DNA of 64,000 bases, taken from contig NZ_LMSL01000040.1 in the NCBI RefSeq assembly GCF_001428405.1, forward strand, positions 212,122 to 276,121, in the 5' to 3' direction. Below the pieces are notes generated by a model, which did no database searches, was not told the origin of the DNA, and saw only the letters and a program-made list of their open reading frames with translations. A program made the position numbers and the translations under genes. Shown here in pieces: positions 49,719-64,000 of the stretch; the first letter of the stretch is position 1; each line of letters begins with the position of its first letter. The DNA is from Frateuria sp. Soil773 (GTDB lineage: Bacteria > Pseudomonadota > Gammaproteobacteria > Xanthomonadales > Rhodanobacteraceae).

Positions 49719-52700
49719 TCATGGCGTGCGAACCGCCGCACGCCGGGCCGCACGCTGCTCGATCCAGTCGTACAGCACCGGCAGCAGCACCAGGGTCAGC
49801 AGGGTCGAGCTGATCAGGCCGCCGACCACCACGGTGGCGAGCGGGCGCTGGGTTTCCGCGCCCACGCCGCTGGACAGCAGCATCGGCACCAGGCCCAGGA
49901 TCGCCACGCTGGCGGTCATCAGCACCGGGCGCAGGCGCAAGGCGGTGCCGCGGAGCACCGCGTCGCGCACCGCCAGCCCCATGCCGCGCTGCCCGTTGAG
50001 GAAGCTCACCAGCACGATGCCGTTGAGCATCGCCACACCGAACACCGCGATGAAGCCGATCGCCGAGGGCACCGACAGGTATTGTCCGGTGACCGCCAGC
50101 GCGACGATGCCGCCGATGGTGGCGAACGGCACGTTGGCCAGGATCAGCGCAGCGTACTTCACCGAATTGAAGGCGGTGTAGAGCAGCACGAAGATGAAGA
50201 AGATCGTCGCCGGCACGATCAGCGCCAGCCGCTTAAGCGCGCGCTGCTGGTTCTCGAACGCGCCGCCCCACTCACTGTAATAGCCCGGCGGCAGCTTCAC
50301 CTGTTGCGCGATCGCGGCATTCGCCTGCTGCACGAAACCGTCGATGTCGCGTCCGCGCACGTCCATCTGGATCACGGCGTAGCGCTGCAACTGCTCGCGG
50401 CGGATGAACGAGTAGCCCTCTGCATCGCTCACCTCGGCCACCTGCGACAGCTTCACCAGTGCGCCATCCGGCGCGCGGATCGGAATGCGCCGGATCGCCG
50501 GCAGCGAGGCCTTGTCGTCATCGTCCAGCCGCACGGCGATATCGAAGCGCTTCACCCCGTCGAGCAGGCTCGTCACCGGCTCGCCGCCGATGCCGTTCTT
50601 CACCACCGTCAGCACGTCGTCGGCATTCAGGCCGTAGCGCGCCAGCGCCTCGCGGTCGACGCGGATGCGGATCTGCGGCTTGCCTAGGTTCGCCTCCAGC
50701 GCGAGGTCGGCGACGCCTGGCACGCCGGCCAGCACATCCTTGATGCGCGCGCTCAAACGGTCCAGCTCGCCCAGGTCGTCACCGTAGAGCTTCAACGCCA
50801 GGGTGGCACGCACGCCGGAGATCAGCTCCTCGATGCGCATCTGGATCGGCTGGGTGTAGCTCACCACCGCGGTCGGCAGCGCGTCGGACAGGGCCTGCTG
50901 CATCGCCTGCTCGATGCTTTCCAGCGTCTCGCCCTTGCGCCATTGCTGCTTCGGCTTGAGCGGCGTGTATACCTCCATGTAGTTCACGTCGGCGGTCTCG
51001 CCCTTCTCGGCGCGGCCGATCATCGCCAGCGTGGTCTCGACCTCGGGAAACTGCTGCTTGACCAGCGCCGATACCTGCCGCGAGATGGCGATCGATTCAT
51101 CCAGCGAGGCCGAGGGAATCGAGGTGATGCGCCACATGATGGCGCCCTCCTTCAGGTTCGGCATGAACTCCTTGCCCAGGAACGGGAACAGCGCCAGGCT
51201 GCCGACCAGCGCGATGGCGGCAGCGGCGAGCACCCACCGGCGATGCGCCAGCGACCAATCCAGCACCCGGGCATAGCGGCGCTTCAGGAAGGCGACCAGG
51301 CGCGTGTCCTTCTCCTCCTTCGGCTTCAGCACCAGCGCGGCCAGTACCGGCACCAGGGTCAGCGCGAGCGCCAGCGAGCCGGCCATGGCGAAGCCGATGT
51401 TGAACGCCATCGGCTTGAACATCTTGCCTTCCAGCCCTTCGAGGCTGAACAGCGGCAGGAACACCACGATGATGATGGCGATGGCGAACGCGACCGGGTT
51501 GGCCACCTCGCGGGCCGCCGCCAGCACGGCGGCGCTGCGGTCCACCGGCAGGCCGTGCGACTTGCGCTTGGCCATGATGCGGAAGGCGTTCTCCACCATC
51601 ACCACCGCGCCGTCGACCATCATGCCGATGCCGATCGCCAGCCCGGCCAGCGACATCAGGTTGGCCGAGAGCCCGGCCTGCTCCATGCAGATGAAGGCGA
51701 TCAGCATCGCCAGCGGCAATGCCAGCACGACCACCAGCGCGCTGCGCAGCTCGCCGAGGAACAGGAACAGCACCAGCGCCACCAGGATCGAGCCCTCGAC
51801 CAGCGCGCGCACCGCCGTGTCCACCGCCGCGTTGACCAGCCCGGTGCGCTCGTACACCGGCTTCACCGCCACGCCGGGCGGCAGCGCCTGCCTCACCGTG
51901 TCGAGCTTCGACCTGACCGCGTCGACCACGCTCTTGGCGTTCTCGCCGATGCGCGCCAGCGCCTGGCCCATCACCACTTCCCGGCCGTCGCGGGTGACCG
52001 CGCCGGTGCGCGGCGCGCCCGCCTCGACGACCGCGGCGACGTCGCGCACGTACACCGGCGTGCCGTCCTCGGTCTTCAGCACGATGCTGCCCAGGTCCTG
52101 CGCATTGCGCACCAGCCCCAGCCCGCGCACCAGGTACTGCTCGCGGCCGACGTCGACGAAGTTGCCGCCGACCTGGGCGTTGTTGGCCTGCAGCGCCGCG
52201 ATCACGTCCTTGAAGCCGAGCTTGTGCGCGATCAGCTTCACCGGGTCGATGCGCACCTGGTACTGCTTCTCCTGCCCGCCCCACGAGGTGACGTCGTCGA
52301 CGCCGGGCGCGGTGCGCAGGATCAGGCGGATGGTCCAGTCCTGCAACGTGCGCAGGTCCATGTCGTCCGGCGCGGCGCCCTTCGCCTCCCTCGGCTGCTC
52401 GTCGGCACGCTCCACGGTGTACCAGAACACCTGGCCCAGGCCGGAGGTGTTCGGCCCCATCTCGGGCTTGCCGTAGCCGGCAGGCAGGCGGTCGCCGACC
52501 TGCTGCAGCCGCTCGTTGACCAGTTGGCGGGCGAAGTAGATGTCCATGCCGTCGTCGAAATAGACCGACACGTAGGACAGCCCGAACAGGCTCACCGAGC
52601 GGATCTGCTCCACCTTCGGCAGGCCGGCCAGGGCCGACTCCACCGGCGTGGTCAGCAGTTGCTCGACGTCTTCGGCGGCCAGTCCGGGCGCCTCGGTGTA

Positions 52701-52850
52701 CACGTTGACCTGCACCGGCGTGACGTCGGGGAACGCATCGATCGGCAACTGGCGCACCGCCTGGAAACCCAGGAAGCCGACCGCCGCGAAGGCGATCAGC
52801 ACCAGCACCTTGTAGCGCAGGGAAAGTTCGACCAGTCGCTCCAGCATCAT
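49719..52850 (-). CDS. czcA: CzcA-type heavy-metal RND efflux pump
   Basis: A 1043-residue inner-membrane antiporter with twelve helices and two large periplasmic loops. GIGMMVDGAVVMVENAFR in the fourth helix region has the acidic residue of the HME-RND family proton relay. It expels divalent (Co/Zn/Cd) or monovalent (Cu/Ag) metals; the residues seen do not settle which. ATGA overlap with czcB (52847-52850) and of czcB with czcC gives a tightly coupled czcCBA operon. Confidence 0.95.
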   Translation of the reverse strand: MMLERLVELSLRYKVLVLIAFAAVGFLGFQAVRQLPIDAFPDVTPVQVNVYTEAPGLAAEDVEQLLTTPVESALAGLPKVEQIRSVSLFGLSYVSVYFDDGMDIYFARQLVNERLQQVGDRLPAGYGKPEMGPNTSGLGQVFWYTVERADEQPREAKGAAPDDMDLRTLQDWTIRLILRTAPGVDDVTSWGGQEKQYQVRIDPVKLIAHKLGFKDVIAALQANNAQVGGNFVDVGREQYLVRGLGLVRNAQDLGSIVLKTEDGTPVYVRDVAAVVEAGAPRTGAVTRDGREVVMGQALARIGENAKSVVDAVRSKLDTVRQALPPGVAVKPVYERTGLVNAAVDTAVRALVEGSILVALVLFLFLGELRSALVVVLALPLAMLIAFICMEQAGLSANLMSLAGLAIGIGMMVDGAVVMVENAFRIMAKRKSHGLPVDRSAAVLAAAREVANPVAFAIAIIIVVFLPLFSLEGLEGKMFKPMAFNIGFAMAGSLALALTLVPVLAALVLKPKEEKDTRLVAFLKRRYARVLDWSLAHRRWVLAAAAIALVGSLALFPFLGKEFMPNLKEGAIMWRITSIPSASLDESIAISRQVSALVKQQFPEVETTLAMIGRAEKGETADVNYMEVYTPLKPKQQWRKGETLESIEQAMQQALSDALPTAVVSYTQPIQMRIEELISGVRATLALKLYGDDLGELDRLSARIKDVLAGVPGVADLALEANLGKPQIRIRVDREALARYGLNADDVLTVVKNGIGGEPVTSLLDGVKRFDIAVRLDDDDKASLPAIRRIPIRAPDGALVKLSQVAEVSDAEGYSFIRREQLQRYAVIQMDVRGRDIDGFVQQANAAIAQQVKLPPGYYSEWGGAFENQQRALKRLALIVPATIFFIFVLLYTAFNSVKYAALILANVPFATIGGIVALAVTGQYLSVPSAIGFIAVFGVAMLNGIVLVSFLNGQRGMGLAVRDAVLRGTALRLRPVLMTASVAILGLVPMLLSSGVGAETQRPLATVVVGGLISSTLLTLVLLPVLYDWIEQRAARRAAVRTP

Positions 52851-53944
52851 TCCTCTCCCAGTTGCGAACGCAGCAGCCGCGCCTTGAGCGCGAAGGCGCC
52901 CTTGCGCACGTAGCGGGCGCCGGGTTTCAGTCCGTGCGTGACGACGATCCAGCCGTCGCGCGACTCGCCGGTCTCCACCGCCGCCGGCTCGAAGCGGCCG
53001 TTGCCCTTGTCGAGGAACACGCTGGGCTGGTTCTGCAGCAGCACGACCGCCTCGGCCGGCACCGCCAGCGCCGGCGCCGCGTCGCCGATGGCGAGCCGCG
53101 CATCGACCAGTTCGCCCGGATGCAGCAGGTCGGCGCGGTTGTCCACCGCGATGCGCACCGAGACGGTGCGGGTGCGCTCGCTGGTCTGGTGCGCGCGCTG
53201 CACCACCTTGCCGGGCAGCTCGCCGCCGTGCACCAGGATGCGCGCGGCGCCGCCGGGCTTGACCCGCTCGGCGTCGGACGGCGCCAGCTGCGCCTCCACC
53301 CACACCGAGTCCTCCTGCACCAGGGTGAACAGCGTGCGGCCGGGTTCGACCCGTTCGCCGACCAGGAACGCATCGGTGGTGATGCGTCCGGCGACCGGCG
53401 CAAGCAACTCGAAACTGCCGTCCGCGGCGGCCGATCCCTTGCGCAGCAGCGCGCCGATCTGGCCGTCCGACAAGCCGTAGGCGCGCAGCTTGGCGCGGGC
53501 CTGGTCGCGCTGCACGCGGGCCTCGTTGTAGCGCCGCGCCGACACCGCCTGCGGGCCGAGCGAGGCGATCCGCCGCCAGTCTTGCTCGGCCACGATCAGC
53601 GCGCCCTGGGTCTCGGCCGCCTGCACGCTGGACAGCACCAGCAGCGGCTGGCCGGCCTTCACCACCTCGCCGAGCCTGGCCTTGCGGGAAAGCACCTGCG
53701 CCTCCACCCGGGGCGCCACCAGCACGGTCGAATACGCATCGACGACCACTTCGCCGGGCGCCTTCAGCTCCTCGGCCAGCGCCTGCGGCGCGGCCACGCC
53801 GACCGCGATGCCGGCCTCCTTGACCGCCTCGGCGTCGAGCGCCAGCGGATCGGCCGGCGCGGGTTCCTGCGCCCATGCGCCGAGCGGGATCGAAAAGCCC
53901 AGCGCGAGGCCGAGCAGGCTGCGTTTGAAGAAAGTACGGTTCAT
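52847..53944 (-). CDS. czcB: CzcB-type membrane fusion (adaptor) protein
   Basis: A 365-residue periplasmic adaptor. The signal peptide (MNRTFFKRSLLGLALGFS, cleavage after AWA) precedes the barrel-sandwich lipoyl halves (VLVAPRVEAQVLSRKARLGEVV and FELLAPVAGRITTDAF) around a short hairpin, then beta-barrel and membrane-proximal domains. It links CzcA to the outer membrane channel. There is no His-rich N-terminal metal-binding extension. Confidence 0.9.
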   Translation of the reverse strand: MNRTFFKRSLLGLALGFSIPLGAWAQEPAPADPLALDAEAVKEAGIAVGVAAPQALAEELKAPGEVVVDAYSTVLVAPRVEAQVLSRKARLGEVVKAGQPLLVLSSVQAAETQGALIVAEQDWRRIASLGPQAVSARRYNEARVQRDQARAKLRAYGLSDGQIGALLRKGSAAADGSFELLAPVAGRITTDAFLVGERVEPGRTLFTLVQEDSVWVEAQLAPSDAERVKPGGAARILVHGGELPGKVVQRAHQTSERTRTVSVRIAVDNRADLLHPGELVDARLAIGDAAPALAVPAEAVVLLQNQPSVFLDKGNGRFEPAAVETGESRDGWIVVTHGLKPGARYVRKGAFALKARLLRSQLGEE

Positions 53945-55215
53945 CGGGAGGTTTCCTGGGTGCGGCCGTCGAGCCAGTCGGTGAGACGGCCCGCGGCGCC
54001 GAGATAGTCGAACCAGGCCTGCCAGGCCTGGCTTTCCAGTTCCTGGCCGGACAGCGCGGTGTCCAGGCTCTGCTTGAGCTGCACGAGGTAGTCGGAGGTG
54101 CCGATCTCGCCGGCGCGCCAGAGCCTCTCCAGCAGGGCGGCACGATCCTCGAAGGCGGCCGCGCGGCCCTGGCGGAACGCGGCGGCCGCATCGCGCAGGG
54201 CGGCATAGCGCGCCTGCGCTTCCTGCAACCCGGCATGCAGCCGCTGCCGCTGTGCGCGCAGCTCGGCCGCGGCGGCCTCGGCCTCGGCGCGCGCGGCGGC
54301 GACTTCGGCACGACCGCTGTTGAGTACCGGCAAGGGGATCGCGATGATCACCCCGATCACCCGGTCGCTGAGCGGTCCGTTGCGCACGCGGCCGCCGACC
54401 AGGCCGAGCGTGGGATCGGGTATCCGCGCACGGCGCGCCACCTGCACGCCGGCATCGGCGCTCGCCTGCCGCGCGCTTGCCTGGCGCCACTCGGGCCGCT
54501 CGTCGTCAGGCAACGGGACGATGCCCGCCGGCGGCGGCATGCCGTTGTCCAGCGCCGGCAGTGGATCGACCGCGTCGCCGCCGATCGACGACAGCGTCGC
54601 GCGCGCCGCGGCCTCGTTGCCGATCAAGGCCGCCTGCTGGATCTGCGCCTCGCCCAGCGCAAGGCCGGCCAGGTCGCGTTCGGGGCTGCTGATGTCGCCG
54701 ACCTTGAGCTGTTCGGCGGCCAGCGCGTCGAAACGCTGCATCAGCGCCAGCCGGCGCTGGCCCAGCGCGCGCTGGCGCGCGGCCAGCGACGCTGTCGCCC
54801 ACGCTTTCAGCCAGCGCGCGGCGAGGTCCCGCCGCAGCAGTTCGTAGCCCGCCTCGCTGGCGAGCAGGTCGGCGCTCCCCTGGCTGGCGCGGGCGCGGCG
54901 CTTGCCGGAAAGATCCAGCGCCAGGCTGATTCCGGCCGTGCGCCGGTCGACGTCGGCGTTCTCCGCCTCCAGCGACAGCGACGGGTTGTACAGCGGTTGC
55001 GCGGCCGCCTGCGCGCGCGCCTGCGCGGCGGCCAGCCCGGCGCGCGCGGCCTGCACGTCCGGGCTGGCCGCCCAGACCCGGCGCACGGCGTCCTGCAACG
55101 GCGACGGTGCCTGCGCGGCGGCGGATGGGGATGGATCGGGGCGTGGCGCGGCGCTCAAGGTCGCCATGGCCAGCAGGCATGCGGCACCGAGCGATGCCGT
55201 ACGTGGGACGGACAT
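53941..55215 (-). CDS. czcC: CzcC-type outer membrane efflux protein (TolC family)
   Basis: A 424-residue TolC-family channel with signal peptide (MSVPRTASLGAACLLAMATL) and two repeats of long helical, Ala-rich stretches (AQARAQAAAQPLYNPSLSLEAEN; AAARAEAEAAAAELRAQRQRL). It completes the tripartite pump. It is preceded at 73 bp by a small cysteine/histidine-containing exported protein gene. Confidence 0.92.
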   Translation of the reverse strand: MSVPRTASLGAACLLAMATLSAAPRPDPSPSAAAQAPSPLQDAVRRVWAASPDVQAARAGLAAAQARAQAAAQPLYNPSLSLEAENADVDRRTAGISLALDLSGKRRARASQGSADLLASEAGYELLRRDLAARWLKAWATASLAARQRALGQRRLALMQRFDALAAEQLKVGDISSPERDLAGLALGEAQIQQAALIGNEAAARATLSSIGGDAVDPLPALDNGMPPPAGIVPLPDDERPEWRQASARQASADAGVQVARRARIPDPTLGLVGGRVRNGPLSDRVIGVIIAIPLPVLNSGRAEVAAARAEAEAAAAELRAQRQRLHAGLQEAQARYAALRDAAAAFRQGRAAAFEDRAALLERLWRAGEIGTSDYLVQLKQSLDTALSGQELESQAWQAWFDYLGAAGRLTDWLDGRTQETSR

Positions 55216-59490: not shown

Positions 59491-60723
59491 CTAACGCCCA
59501 CGCATCGCGCTGGCCGGGGACACGCGGGTCGCCAGCACCGACGGGAACAGCGTGGCGAGCAGGCTCAGGGCGAACACCGCCAAGGCGCCGTAAAGGATGT
59601 ACTGGAACGGCAATGCCGTACCGGACCGGTAGACGAGCAGCGCATGGTTGGCACTCACGGCCAGGCCCCCTCCTAGGACGACGCCGGCCGCCGTAAGTAC
59701 CGCGTTCTGGCCCAGGAAGTAGCCGAACACGGCCGTCCTGCTGGCGCCCAGCGCGCGCATGACGCCCACCTGCTTGCGCCGCTGCTGCACCCAGAACGAG
59801 GTGAGCCCGAAGATGCCCAGGCCCGTGAAGACCATGGTCAGTATCGCCGCCAGCAACAGCGTCCAGGCGGTAGTGGTCTCCGCGGAGAAATAGGCCCTGC
59901 GCATGTGGGCGAACGAATCGACCGAGACTTTTTCCGCCGTTGCGTACTCGGTGCGGAGAATGGAATCGATCGACGCGATGAGCTTTTCGCATGCGTCGGC
60001 CTCGACGCAGCCGGGCGCCTTCAGCCGAATGGCGAACTGGCTCACGAAGGGTGCGTTGACGGCGGTGACCGCACCCAGCGGAAAGACCACCGCGGCGAAC
60101 GGATTGGCCGCATCCATGCTGGGCCGCAGGATGTCGTCGATCACACCGACCACGTGGTACGCGCGCTGCGGCCCGTAGAGCAGCGCCCCCGCCGCGTGTC
60201 CACCGGGCCATAGCTGCTCCGCCAGGGATTTCGTCACCAGGACGGCATCGCCGGTGGGCGTGAACAGGTCCAGGTCCGCTCCCACGTAGTCGTCGTGCTG
60301 CAGCGGCCGACCGGCAATCACGCGCAGATCCAGCGCGCGGGCGAACCCTTCCAGCCCGAAATAGCTGGATGCGGACACGGTATCCGTATCGTGGTTCTGC
60401 GGCACGGTGGAGAAACTGGCCACGAAATTGGCCTCCGAAAGCGGCGTCGCATTGGTCGGCGCGGCGGCGGCGACCTGCGGCAGCGCCCTGATCCGGCTCA
60501 GCGCCGAGCGCGCGGCATCGGCGTTGTCCGCGGGATTCCCGCCGCCGATCCGGGCCACCAGCAGGGCAGTCTCGTCGATGCCGTTGGGCAGCGAGACTTC
60601 CCGCATGTGGCGTACGGTCAGGTGGATCACGTTCACCAGTACGGCCATCGCCACGATGATTTCCAGGACGATCAGCGTCGCGGACAGGCGATGGCGCTTG
60701 AGGGCGGATACGGCTGGAGACAT
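59491..60723 (-). CDS. MacB/FtsX-type ABC permease (second copy)
   Basis: A 410-residue permease: helix at about 16-36 (SATLIVLEIIVAMAVLVNVIHL), a large periplasmic MacB-like domain (about 40-280), then three C-terminal helices (LLLAAILTMVFTGLGIFGL; AVLTAAGVVLGGGLAV; ALAVFALSLLATLFPS) with GVMRALGASRTAVF between. It lacks an ATPase domain and lies 15 bp after a related permease, so they probably form a heterodimer. The ATPase partner must be encoded elsewhere, likely beyond the right edge. Confidence 0.88.
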   Translation of the reverse strand: MSPAVSALKRHRLSATLIVLEIIVAMAVLVNVIHLTVRHMREVSLPNGIDETALLVARIGGGNPADNADAARSALSRIRALPQVAAAAPTNATPLSEANFVASFSTVPQNHDTDTVSASSYFGLEGFARALDLRVIAGRPLQHDDYVGADLDLFTPTGDAVLVTKSLAEQLWPGGHAAGALLYGPQRAYHVVGVIDDILRPSMDAANPFAAVVFPLGAVTAVNAPFVSQFAIRLKAPGCVEADACEKLIASIDSILRTEYATAEKVSVDSFAHMRRAYFSAETTTAWTLLLAAILTMVFTGLGIFGLTSFWVQQRRKQVGVMRALGASRTAVFGYFLGQNAVLTAAGVVLGGGLAVSANHALLVYRSGTALPFQYILYGALAVFALSLLATLFPSVLATRVSPASAMRGR

Positions 60724-60738
60724 GGCTGGTCCGGATGC

Positions 60739-62037
60739 CTAGAGGAGTTTCAGGTTGCCCGCCGGGGATATCCGGCAGGCCCGCCATGCGGGAAGCAACG
60801 CTGCCAGTACCGCGGCGCCGATCGAAAAGACGATGCACCAGCCCAGCGTCGTGACGCCGATCCCGATCAGGTGCGCGTAGCGGGACGGCTGCGCCGCTAT
60901 CGCCATGAGGCTTGCCCAGGCAATGAACGCCCCGACGAGGCCTGCGGCCAGGCCCACCACCGCCGATTCGATCATCAACTGCGCAAAGACGTCGGCTCGC
61001 CTGGCTCCCAGGGCGCGCCTCAACGACGTCTCGCCGCTGCGTCGCATGAACTTGGCCAGCAGCAGCGCGATGGAATTGACGATGCCCACGATCAGGAACA
61101 CGAGCGCCAGCCAGCGCTGGGTGCTGGCCTCGTCGGGAACCGCGCTGTGCGAGGCCAGCCATTTCACGAGCGGGGTCACCGCCGCCGTCGCCGGATCGAG
61201 GCTCGCGCCGAGCGAGTTCTGCTGGCTTACGAACCGGGCAAGGAAATCCCGGAACCCGCGCTGCTGCCCGGAATCCTCCAGTATCGTCCAGAGCGACAGC
61301 CAGGCACAGGTGGACGCCTGCGGGCTCGTCTCCCCTCCGGTGCATTCCAGTTGCCGCGGCTGCATCGCCATTGCCCTGGCCACGCTGAGCGGCACGTAGA
61401 TGTCGATGGCCGACCCGAACGGGTCGCCGCCCAGGTCCGACGCGTAGAAGCGGGGCTGCGGCTGCCAGTCCCGCGCCACGCCGACGATCGACAGGCTGTG
61501 GCCGGCGACGCTGATGATGCGCCCCACCGCGCTGCCTTCCCCGAACAAGCGTCGTGCCAGCTCGTCGGAAATGACCACCTGGAAGGTGGGATCGGTATCG
61601 GCGTCCTTCGACCAGGCGCGGCCCTCGCGGAACCCGATGTCGAAGGTGTGGAAGACGGCGCTGGTGGCGATCAGGGCATTGGCCCGCCGCGGATAGCGCT
61701 CCTGCCCCGTGGGCGGCAGGCTGACGTTGGACAGAGCCAACGGGCTGAGCGGGTACCGGCTGGCGCGCAGGATCTGAAGAGCCGTATCGAAATTGAGCAA
61801 CTCCCCATTGGCGGCTTTGCCGTCCTTGTGGGCATGGCCCGGTGCCAGGGTGCCCAGCTCGATGTGGAAAAGCTGGCCGCGCCGGCTCGGCACCGGATCG
61901 GCGCCCAGGCTGTCGACGACCGTCTGGGTGGCGGCGGAGGTACCCGCGCCCACCGCCAGGCCCGCGACCATCAGCAGGGTCATCGCCGGGGACGAGACGA
62001 GGCTGCGCAAAGCCACTCGGAAATAGTAGAGAAACAT
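60739..62037 (-). CDS. MacB/FtsX-type ABC permease (first copy)
   Basis: A 432-residue permease of the same layout: ALRSLVSSPAMTLLMVAGLAVGAGT (about 9-33), a periplasmic domain, then SIALLLAKFMRRSGETSLRRALGARRADVF with the FtsX signature and two further helices. The start was set at ATG 62037, since a longer frame to 62073 adds a basic prefix. Such permease pairs export peptides or lipids or do mechanotransmission. It belongs to the operon with the PDZ-like and HExxH genes. Confidence 0.88.
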   Translation of the reverse strand: MFLYYFRVALRSLVSSPAMTLLMVAGLAVGAGTSAATQTVVDSLGADPVPSRRGQLFHIELGTLAPGHAHKDGKAANGELLNFDTALQILRASRYPLSPLALSNVSLPPTGQERYPRRANALIATSAVFHTFDIGFREGRAWSKDADTDPTFQVVISDELARRLFGEGSAVGRIISVAGHSLSIVGVARDWQPQPRFYASDLGGDPFGSAIDIYVPLSVARAMAMQPRQLECTGGETSPQASTCAWLSLWTILEDSGQQRGFRDFLARFVSQQNSLGASLDPATAAVTPLVKWLASHSAVPDEASTQRWLALVFLIVGIVNSIALLLAKFMRRSGETSLRRALGARRADVFAQLMIESAVVGLAAGLVGAFIAWASLMAIAAQPSRYAHLIGIGVTTLGWCIVFSIGAAVLAALLPAWRACRISPAGNLKLL

Positions 62038-62090
62038 GCCGCAACCTCTGGAGACAGCTTCGCGCACGATCATGGAAAGCCCATTGCCGG

Positions 62091-62630
62091 CTACCTGCCT
62101 GGGACCACGGGCTCGGGCGATGGCGGTACGGGCAGGCCGCCCGGAGGCGGCGGTGCCGGTTCCGGGCCCTTCGCGAGGGACCTGAATACGGCCAACCGCT
62201 CGTCGTCGAGACGGCGGCGCAGCGGCGCTCCGTTGCCGTCGGCAAGCTGGACGGTAACGGCCCGTTTTCGCCCGAGCAGGGCAAGCAGGTCCCGTGGCGT
62301 CCTGGCCCGCTGCCCATCCACGGAGAGCAGCCGCTCGTTGGCGCGAAGCCCCCAGAAGCCGTCATCGGGCGACGGCTCGATCCGGTACGAGCCATCCTGC
62401 TGCCGCACGAACGTCAAGGCATGGCCCTGGTCGCAGACCCGCAGCATGTCGTCGGTGGCAAGGACACCGCAGTCCTGCCTGCCCGCGATACCGGGCGTTC
62501 CGGCGGAAGCGACCGGCAGATGGCCTAATACGGCAAGCAACGGGAGCAGCCACACGGCCCATGCCCGCCTCCGCCGCCGTTGATGGCTGGCCCGGACGTT
62601 TCCGGCGCGGATCGACTGAAAACGGATCAT
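62091..62630 (-). CDS. exported protein with PDZ-like domain
   Basis: A 179-residue protein. A basic start, hydrophobic segment (about 24-42, AWAVWLLPLLAVLGHLPVA) and SAG cleavage site are followed by one PDZ-like module (FWGLRANERLLSVDGQRARTPRDLLALLGRK, with carboxylate-binding-like loop) and a Pro-rich tail. Two cysteines (Cys54, Cys66) could pair. ATGA overlap with the gene before it couples their translation. It may bind a peptide in the periplasm; this is inference. Confidence 0.65.
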   Translation of the reverse strand: MIRFQSIRAGNVRASHQRRRRRAWAVWLLPLLAVLGHLPVASAGTPGIAGRQDCGVLATDDMLRVCDQGHALTFVRQQDGSYRIEPSPDDGFWGLRANERLLSVDGQRARTPRDLLALLGRKRAVTVQLADGNGAPLRRRLDDERLAVFRSLAKGPEPAPPPPGGLPVPPSPEPVVPGR

Positions 62631-63520
62631 GGTGCCAAAGCCTCCTCCCGCCGGCTTGCCGCTGGCCGCGACGGCGCCTGGACGGCGCAGAGCGAGGCCA
62701 GCCAGCGTTGCATGGACGCGCGTGCCGACGCGTCTTCCGCCACGCTACCCAGGCGCGTCGAGCAGGCATGGAAGGTGAGCACGCCATCGTCGCCGTAATA
62801 GAACAGCATCTCGCACAGGGGACAGTCGAACAGGTCGCTGACCAGGCGGGTCACATGCCGCAGGCGTTCCGGCTCGGGAATCCGCTCGCCGCGCAGTGGC
62901 CTGGTGACGATTTCGTCACCGATGCGTGCGCCGAGCAATGGGATGCCCTGCGGCCGCTCGACGTAGAACCTGTTGCGCGTCCCTGCCGGGCCATCGATGA
63001 CGTCGCCATCCCTCCAGCTGAAATACGACCAGATGGACTTGCGGATCGGATCGCGCAGCGCGCTGGTGTCGGGAATACTTTCGCCGAAGCCGAACACGTA
63101 GCGCGGCACCGCGACGGCGATCCCGCTCCTGGCGACTACGTGCCACTGCGTGGGAAGCGGCAGTTGCACCAGGGACGCACCCTTGGCGGCCCAGGGATAG
63201 CACACCGTGCCTGCCGGCCACAGGCTGACCATGGCGCGGTGGAACCACGATGGCGAAAGGTTTCCCCAGCCGGCCACGTGTGCGGACAGCGACCTGGCAT
63301 CGATGTCGAAGAGCCGGTTGATCACGTAGCCGTAGGCACGCAGTTCGCCGGCGCTTTCGCGAAGCAGCACGCGCGGGAGCGTCTTGCCGTGATCCACGTG
63401 GACATGGCTGCAAAGCTCGGCCAGCCCCATGCGGACCGGGCCGCCGTCCGCCGCCGCCGCGACGATCTTCAGCAGCGGATCTCCCTCCGAGTGCAGCAGA
63501 AGCACGGCTGGCCTAGGCAT
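62627..63520 (-). CDS. unknown protein coupled to the HExxH gene (possible degenerate ATP-grasp)
   Basis: A 297-residue protein of unclear family. YGYVINRLFDID near residue 65, then WFHRAMVSLWPAG and a C-terminal part with CEMLFYYGDDGVLTFHAC, recalls the two-lobe plan of RiPP-associated ATP-grasp proteins with an NRL motif, but no clear ATP-binding glycine loop is visible, so this is tentative. AGGAGGAGG precedes ATG 63520, which lies inside the end of the HExxH gene; it also overlaps the PDZ-like gene by ATGA. Confidence 0.55.
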   Translation of the reverse strand: MPRPAVLLLHSEGDPLLKIVAAAADGGPVRMGLAELCSHVHVDHGKTLPRVLLRESAGELRAYGYVINRLFDIDARSLSAHVAGWGNLSPSWFHRAMVSLWPAGTVCYPWAAKGASLVQLPLPTQWHVVARSGIAVAVPRYVFGFGESIPDTSALRDPIRKSIWSYFSWRDGDVIDGPAGTRNRFYVERPQGIPLLGARIGDEIVTRPLRGERIPEPERLRHVTRLVSDLFDCPLCEMLFYYGDDGVLTFHACSTRLGSVAEDASARASMQRWLASLCAVQAPSRPAASRREEALAP

Positions 63521-64000
63521 ATTCGACGTCCTCCTCCTCGACGCGCACCCTGGCGCGGATCGCTTCCTGCATGGCATCCAGGCGCTCGAGCAAAACGGCG
63601 TCGACGCCTTCCGCGGTGATCAGGAAATCGGTCATGGACTGATTGCTCAAGAAACCGGAGACGAATTGCAGCGTCCGCGCACGGATTCTCGCCTGGTCGT
63701 GCTCCGGCGCCGAAAGCAGCCCGGCCTCGCCGGCGGCCTCCATCAACTTGAAGCAGGCGAAATAGACGAAGACCGCATGGATGAACGAGGAATTGGGAAT
63801 CGGATTGCCGGACCACGGCGATACCGGCCGCACCTCGTTGCCCCTGTGGCAGAAGCTCCCGTGCACGTACTCGCACGCCGCCAGGTAATTGTGGATGGAC
63901 TCGTGGAGTATCTTTTCGGCCGCCATCGCGGCCGAGAACTCGGGCAGGTGCGGATTGAGCATGCGGATCGCGCCGATCTGCCGGGTCATGTGCTCCGACG
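63513..64000 (-). CDS. HExxH-motif protein, possible peptide-modification enzyme (5' end cut by window edge)
   Basis: The frame is open to the right edge (SEH before Met at 63989), so the N-terminus lies outside. From that Met, His29, Glu30 and His33 form HESIHN, and SPWSGNPIPNSSFIHAVFVYF contains His71. The series HE--HN, SPW--(D/N)P-P and IHAV-VY resembles the HEXXH motif domain family linked to RiPP modification, some members of which are alpha-ketoglutarate-dependent hydroxylases. It is upstream of the coupled NRL-motif, PDZ-like and permease genes. Confidence 0.65.
   Translation of the reverse strand, partial: SEHMTRQIGAIRMLNPHLPEFSAAMAAEKILHESIHNYLAACEYVHGSFCHRGNEVRPVSPWSGNPIPNSSFIHAVFVYFACFKLMEAAGEAGLLSAPEHDQARIRARTLQFVSGFLSNQSMTDFLITAEGVDAVLLERLDAMQEAIRARVRVEEEDVEYA

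Follow-up and report, generated by a model that had tools for sequence, protein, structure and literature searches.

The window analysed here, a stretch of 64,000 nucleotides (G000:C40:212122-276121), breaks off at its right edge within a group of minus-strand genes. The contig carries on for 116 kb to the right, and this sequence supplied the missing right-hand part of what appears to be a six-gene operon, lying partly just beyond the window and comprising a precursor, an HExxH protein, a protein designated 'NRL', a PDZ-like protein and two permeases. The features are listed below, with positions above 64000 continuing the window numbering.

64786-65052 (L002:8786-9052), minus strand, outside the window: precursor-like ORF P0009, 88 aa, 86 nt upstream of the HExxH gene
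64750-64780 (L002:8750-8780): GC-rich hairpin with a 14-bp stem, directly after the precursor stop codon (z=-4.2)
63513-64700 (L002:7513-8700), minus strand: HExxH protein P0001, 395 aa, of which 63513-64000 lies in the window and the rest was completed outside it
62627-63520, minus strand: 'NRL' protein P0014, 297 aa, a putative pseudo-ATP-grasp and presumed substrate-handling partner of the HExxH enzyme
62091-62630, minus strand: PDZ-like protein P0011, 179 aa, exported or membrane-anchored (PDZ_6, E=0.0018, under the Pfam cut-off)
60739-62073, minus strand: permease 1, P0012, 444 aa, MacB/FtsX-type (MacB_PCD/FtsX above the Pfam cut-offs), corresponding to the ADOP N-terminal half
59491-60723, minus strand: permease 2, P0013, 410 aa, MacB/FtsX-type (MacB_PCD/FtsX above the Pfam cut-offs), corresponding to the ADOP C-terminal half

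All five frames that the preliminary description had assigned to a right-edge operon are present on the minus strand, overlapping or closely spaced and running leftwards. The true start of the 'NRL' gene is 63520, not 63577, and its ATG sits within the 3' end of the HExxH gene; the start of the PDZ-like gene joins the preceding stop by an ATGA overlap. A scan for promoters and terminators gave nothing above chance. Upstream, an unrelated glycine-transporter-family gene lies ~490 nt beyond the precursor ORF, and a subclass B3 metallo-beta-lactamase gene (L002:16193-17230, window ~72193-73230; 347.7 bits against a cut-off of 240) lies ~7 kb from the operon. Some 4 kb downstream are CzcCBA-like heavy-metal RND efflux genes (window 49719-55215), which show no sign of belonging to the operon.

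Co-conservation of the gene pair and its precursors

We searched 233 genomes of the family, 369 of the class, 398 of the order and 398 of the phylum, among which the HExxH and 'NRL' pair occurs in few, scattered genomes. An alignment-based search for HExxH relatives recovered 12 loci, while a scan of genome contigs with a single HExxH sequence returned no match. In the final set, 16 HExxH copies are spread over 15 distinct loci, of which 12 are from Xanthomonadales. Carriers include Dyella flagellata, Stenotrophomonas maltophilia, S. geniculata, two further Stenotrophomonas, Xanthomonas albilineans, X. sp. GPE 39, X. hortorum and a Luteibacter MAG, and the three distant loci (L035-L037) belong to Chitinimonas, a marine gammaproteobacterium and a Bacteriovoracaceae MAG. 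An HExxH protein from a Rhizobium lusitanum plasmid was set aside; its gene adjoins a radical SAM gene, a different architecture.

An 'NRL'-family gene adjoins the HExxH gene in all 16 copies, and in a genome of the window's own family (G103) the two are fused into a single 724-aa ORF (L013:9237-11411). Furthermore, the distances among the HExxH and among the 'NRL' proteins co-vary (Mantel r=0.95, 0 of 5000 permutations). Since the two genes lie side by side in 15 loci and their distances co-vary, their pairing is not due to chance.

The permease pair is present at 11 of the 12 Xanthomonadales loci (missing from L013) and a Methyltransf_24 gene at 10 of the 12, the exceptions being the window locus and L010. 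The PDZ-like protein is unique to the window copy, where it holds the place of the relatives' methyltransferase. A related XRE-type regulator lies nearby in six loci. Several single loci showed further peculiarities. Two HExxH and pseudo-ATP-grasp copies surround one precursor at L013:5633-11411, and the 18 kb of this locus contain no permease. At L034:9999-10766 and L033:10047-10847 the methyltransferase appears disrupted; the X. hortorum protein has a tail resembling the end of a neighbouring transposase-like ORF, and that of X. sp. GPE 39 is split over two ORFs. Peptidase_M3 relatives with signal-like N-termini (L027:4766-6598 and L034:13558-15360) stand on opposite flanks of the cassette in two genera and are candidate leader or product peptidases. 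Upstream of the Dyella locus, a ricin-B-lectin-like ORF (L026:6206-6637; weak Pfam match under the cut-off) adjoins a LuxR-like regulator fragment.

A precursor-like ORF had been predicted to the right of position 64,000, and one was indeed found there, preceded by a good ribosome-binding site. Its product starts with a stretch resembling a signal peptide, has a His/Asp core (VDVDTGDGHWHYDP) and ends in SFDV. A short precursor gene with leader-like and core-like parts stands beside the maturase in 15 of 15 loci, with 1-3 precursor-like peptides per locus. ORFs ending in F[DN][VA](E) occur upstream of the HExxH gene in 14 of the 15 loci (20 ORFs), compared with 1 of 1292 other ORFs. Similarly, 19 of these 20 ORFs have a signal-like N-terminus against 75 of 693 background ORFs, as called by a simple criterion that asks for a positive start, a hydrophobic stretch and a small-x-small site. 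The precursors are under purifying selection (dN/dS 0.09-0.33 in nine homologous pairs).

The cores differ among the carriers. Xanthomonas and Stenotrophomonas share GHHxDSIGSHHHH, the Dyella core reads HHDDDSFGQHHHHD, and the window core, with few His, departs furthest from the rest of the His/Asp set. Chitinimonas and the marine gammaproteobacterium (L035/L036) have poly-Gln cores, and the fifteenth locus, L037, carries a signal-like poly-Asn ORF between the HExxH and 'NRL' genes that ends in GFDRDGFGF. The F[DN]V tail lies ~15-25 residues away from the polar tract. The hairpin 3' of the precursor stop also recurs in most relatives. No second precursor was found in the window's genome. A match of the precursor to the NCBIfam family 'BLB8/JUQZ-1' (E=0.029) was rejected because it spans the signal-peptide part only, and because JUQZ-1 is a Brevibacillus bacteriocin.

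A predicted peptide hydroxylase and its ATP-grasp-like neighbour

All seven HExxH family members tested matched TIGR04267 (IPR026337), the aKG-HExxH peptide beta-hydroxylases that include ChlH (8s5f), SjiH (22ob), BpmH and PesO (best E=5.5e-11). The window protein scored 34.3 bits (35.8 in the genome search), under the curated cut-off of 40; it represents a divergent subfamily and is thus filed as a relative of TIGR04267, not as a clean member. Its AF2 model (pTM 0.87) matched only two PDB structures at E<0.001 in Foldseek, ChlH (8s5f, E=7e-10, TMt 0.71) and SjiH (22ob, E=5e-9), and no peptidase. Residues H266, E267, H270, W296 and H308 are invariant among the 16 family members, and ChlH shares with them the HExxH motif, the SPW segment and the distal HA.fV[YF] histidine. 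The resemblance to RiPP-linked HEXXH proteins seen in the preliminary description is therefore upheld by profile and fold, and the protein appears, from sequence and model, to be an aKG-HExxH-type peptide beta-hydroxylase.

The substrate residues of characterised aKG-HExxH enzymes are His, Asp, Phe, Gln and Pro (PMC12636437, PMC13060819), a range that fits the His/Asp, Gln or Asn-rich cores found here; the substrates of ChlH (His/Asp) and PflC (Gln) agree with the core compositions of this operon. The system resembles that family in model fold, in the HExxH and distal His/SPW pattern and in the short precursor alongside. Unlike those systems, the window enzyme stands alone, with no radical SAM, MNIO or cyclophane enzyme in the operon, and the operon adds a putative pseudo-ATP-grasp partner and a signal-like precursor leader to an enzyme below the profile cut-off.

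The Pseudomonas pfl/pos systems (PflA-PflF; PMC12636437) also offer a close comparison, sharing an HExxH enzyme, consecutive polar residues (poly-Gln), a fixed C-terminal tail and transporters. They have a nitrile-hydratase-type leader, an ARMD tail, an MNIO-nitroreductase and a GNAT protein (PMC12636437), whereas the present family has a signal-like leader, an F[DN]V tail, a putative pseudo-ATP-grasp, the relatives' methyltransferase and FtsX permeases. PflC and PosC hydroxylate consecutive Gln and cut before the fixed C-terminal tetrapeptide (PMC12636437). By analogy, the main reaction here could be oxidative backbone cleavage or amidation at the F[DN]V tail instead of core hydroxylation, since a polar tract followed by a fixed tail is found here too, with poly-Gln in L035/L036. 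We regard this as unlikely: F[DN]V differs from ARMD and stands apart from the polar tract rather than adjoining it, and the window operon contains neither a pfl/pos-type ARMD motif nor an MNIO-nitroreductase gene.

The 'NRL' family, by contrast with its partner, is invisible to profile searches; its 16 members gave no meaningful match in Pfam or NCBIfam, and none of the 16 matched any ATP-grasp model. One structure model of the window protein (pTM 0.72, pLDDT 68) nevertheless returned 282 PDB matches at E<=0.001 in Foldseek. The best 50 of these are led by ITPK1, ArgX, PsnB, LysX, RimK and MdnC, with Foldseek TM values of ~0.5-0.6 for the ATP-grasp matches. The modelled fold is that of an ATP-grasp protein. 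This assignment rests on structure, as hhalign found no significant similarity between the family and MvdD-type ATP-grasps (probability <1%). In a low-confidence profile alignment, FGAFDFIV..FLEINP of the MvdD-type proteins pairs with GEMLLYV..FHAFSP of 'NRL' in the last two strands, so that the metal-binding D..E.N is seemingly swapped for L..A.S in the window protein, with the ligands apparently replaced family-wide. The three Mg-binding residues, Asp, Glu and Asn, thus appear to have been lost, in a residue register that is plausible but inferred, given the non-significant comparison. The earlier suggestion of a degenerate ATP-grasp gains support from the predicted fold and the apparent absence of metal ligands.

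Like the graspetide ligases PsnB, MdnC and MvdD, 'NRL' has a modelled ATP-grasp fold and is encoded beside a RiPP-like precursor. Unlike them, it matches no Pfam or NCBIfam ATP-grasp profile, seems to lack the metal ligands and is accompanied by no obvious graspetide core motif. It seems rather improbable that 'NRL' has rebuilt its active site and works as a divergent ATP-grasp ligase or kinase, which would make the product, hydroxylated and also cross-linked or phosphorylated, a divergent graspetide. The graspetide macrocyclases PsnB and MdnC and ITPK kinases are among its best fold matches, the strongly conserved D14, N68, R69, Q125, P139 and E237, with the mostly conserved Lys of QKS, could build another site, and the cores offer Asp and His. 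However, the D..E.N ligands appear replaced across the family, the precursors show no obvious graspetide-type Thr/Ser...Glu/Asp repeats, and poly-Gln and poly-Asn cores give little for ester or amide ligation. Strict adjacency, fusion and co-evolution would instead be explained by a pseudo-enzyme that binds the peptide before presenting it to the hydroxylase, and we infer that 'NRL' is a substrate-handling partner of the HExxH enzyme.

Very little favours a peptidase that merely cuts the precursor into a small, exported, metal-binding periplasmic peptide without RiPP chemistry: HExxH is a metallopeptidase motif, PflC cleaves hydrolytically without a leader (PMC12636437) and the cores are His-rich, but the PDB matches at E<0.001 are to aKG oxygenases only and the residues common with ChlH reach beyond HExxH.

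Export and the proposed pathway

Each permease corresponds to one half of the ADOP 'orphan' permeases (TIGR03434), P0012 to the N-terminal and P0013 to the C-terminal half (E about 1e-42); together they reach 289 bits against the model's cut-off of 622. As in ADOP systems, both halves are represented and no ATPase lies nearby; unlike single-chain ADOP, they are two separate genes, and unlike a MacB-type exporter they have no ABC ATPase fused or alongside. The preliminary description had expected an ABC ATPase and further maturases just beyond the edge. No ABC ATPase lies within ~100 kb of the operon on this contig; from ~80 kb to 384 kb of contig C40, ABC_tran gave only a weak partial match at C40:268271, inside an RsgA-like GTPase gene. 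Neither further maturases nor a leader protease or ATPase were found in the operon. Elsewhere in the genome, seven to eight tandem split ADOP-type permease pairs are followed by one ABC ATPase (G000:C41:402421-421752), an unusual array that might provide an ATPase for shared use.

The matches to ADOP halves, together with a signal-like precursor N-terminus suggesting Sec, leave the idea of product export by the MacB/FtsX permeases tentative; the precursor sequences suggest Sec export. An export signal serving as precursor leader is also known from bufferins and DAG-RiPPs (MNIO RiPPs with signal peptides; PMC12636315). These differ from the window operon, which has no MNIO and would use HExxH chemistry instead.

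Overall, we put at about three in four the probability that this is a RiPP-like operon whose peptide is beta-hydroxylated and exported by Sec, and in which a pseudo-ATP-grasp handles the substrate as a partner protein. The RiPP-like cluster first proposed thus stands as regards the HExxH kinship, the ATP-grasp fold and the precursor, and falls as regards the ABC ATPase and further maturases. In the proposed pathway, the 88-aa precursor with its Sec-signal-like leader would be made at a high level, and the hairpin after its stop codon may keep the maturation genes at a lower level. The HExxH enzyme, using Fe(II) and alpha-ketoglutarate, would beta-hydroxylate polar residues of the core, most likely His and Asp, in the cytoplasm. 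The pseudo-ATP-grasp, keeping the graspetide-macrocyclase fold, would not ligate; it may bind the precursor by its leader, its C-terminal F[DN]V tail or both, and offer the core to the HExxH enzyme. With a signal peptide on a peptide modified in the cytoplasm, modification must precede export, so the modified peptide would then exit by Sec, and signal peptidase would trim it. At the inner membrane or in the periplasm, the split ADOP-type permeases and the PDZ protein may act in export, release or self-protection, the permeases borrowing an ATPase from elsewhere or running without one. Beta-hydroxy-Asp and beta-hydroxy-His are known siderophore ligands, and a metal-binding peptide is our weakly favoured guess for the product.

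PDB sequence searches returned chance matches only, and in open-access papers we found no report of such a cluster, whether under HExxH with ATP-grasp, the genera or an inactive ATP-grasp. The operon represents a RiPP-like family that seems not to have been described, in which two proteins, fused in one case, form a compact system for modifying small precursors. More speculatively, and on balance doubtfully, a dead ATP-grasp could serve as the recognition subunit of an aKG-HExxH oxygenase that hydroxylates Sec-exported low-complexity tracts (poly-His/Asp, poly-Gln, poly-Asn), defining a new RiPP class of metal-binding peptides. The family would show a pseudo-ATP-grasp acting as a RiPP partner protein and would add tracts of His/Asp, Gln and Asn behind signal-peptide leaders to the range of the aKG-HExxH enzymes. 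It also gives a family name to proteins of Xanthomonas, Stenotrophomonas, Dyella and Luteibacter that profiles do not recognise.
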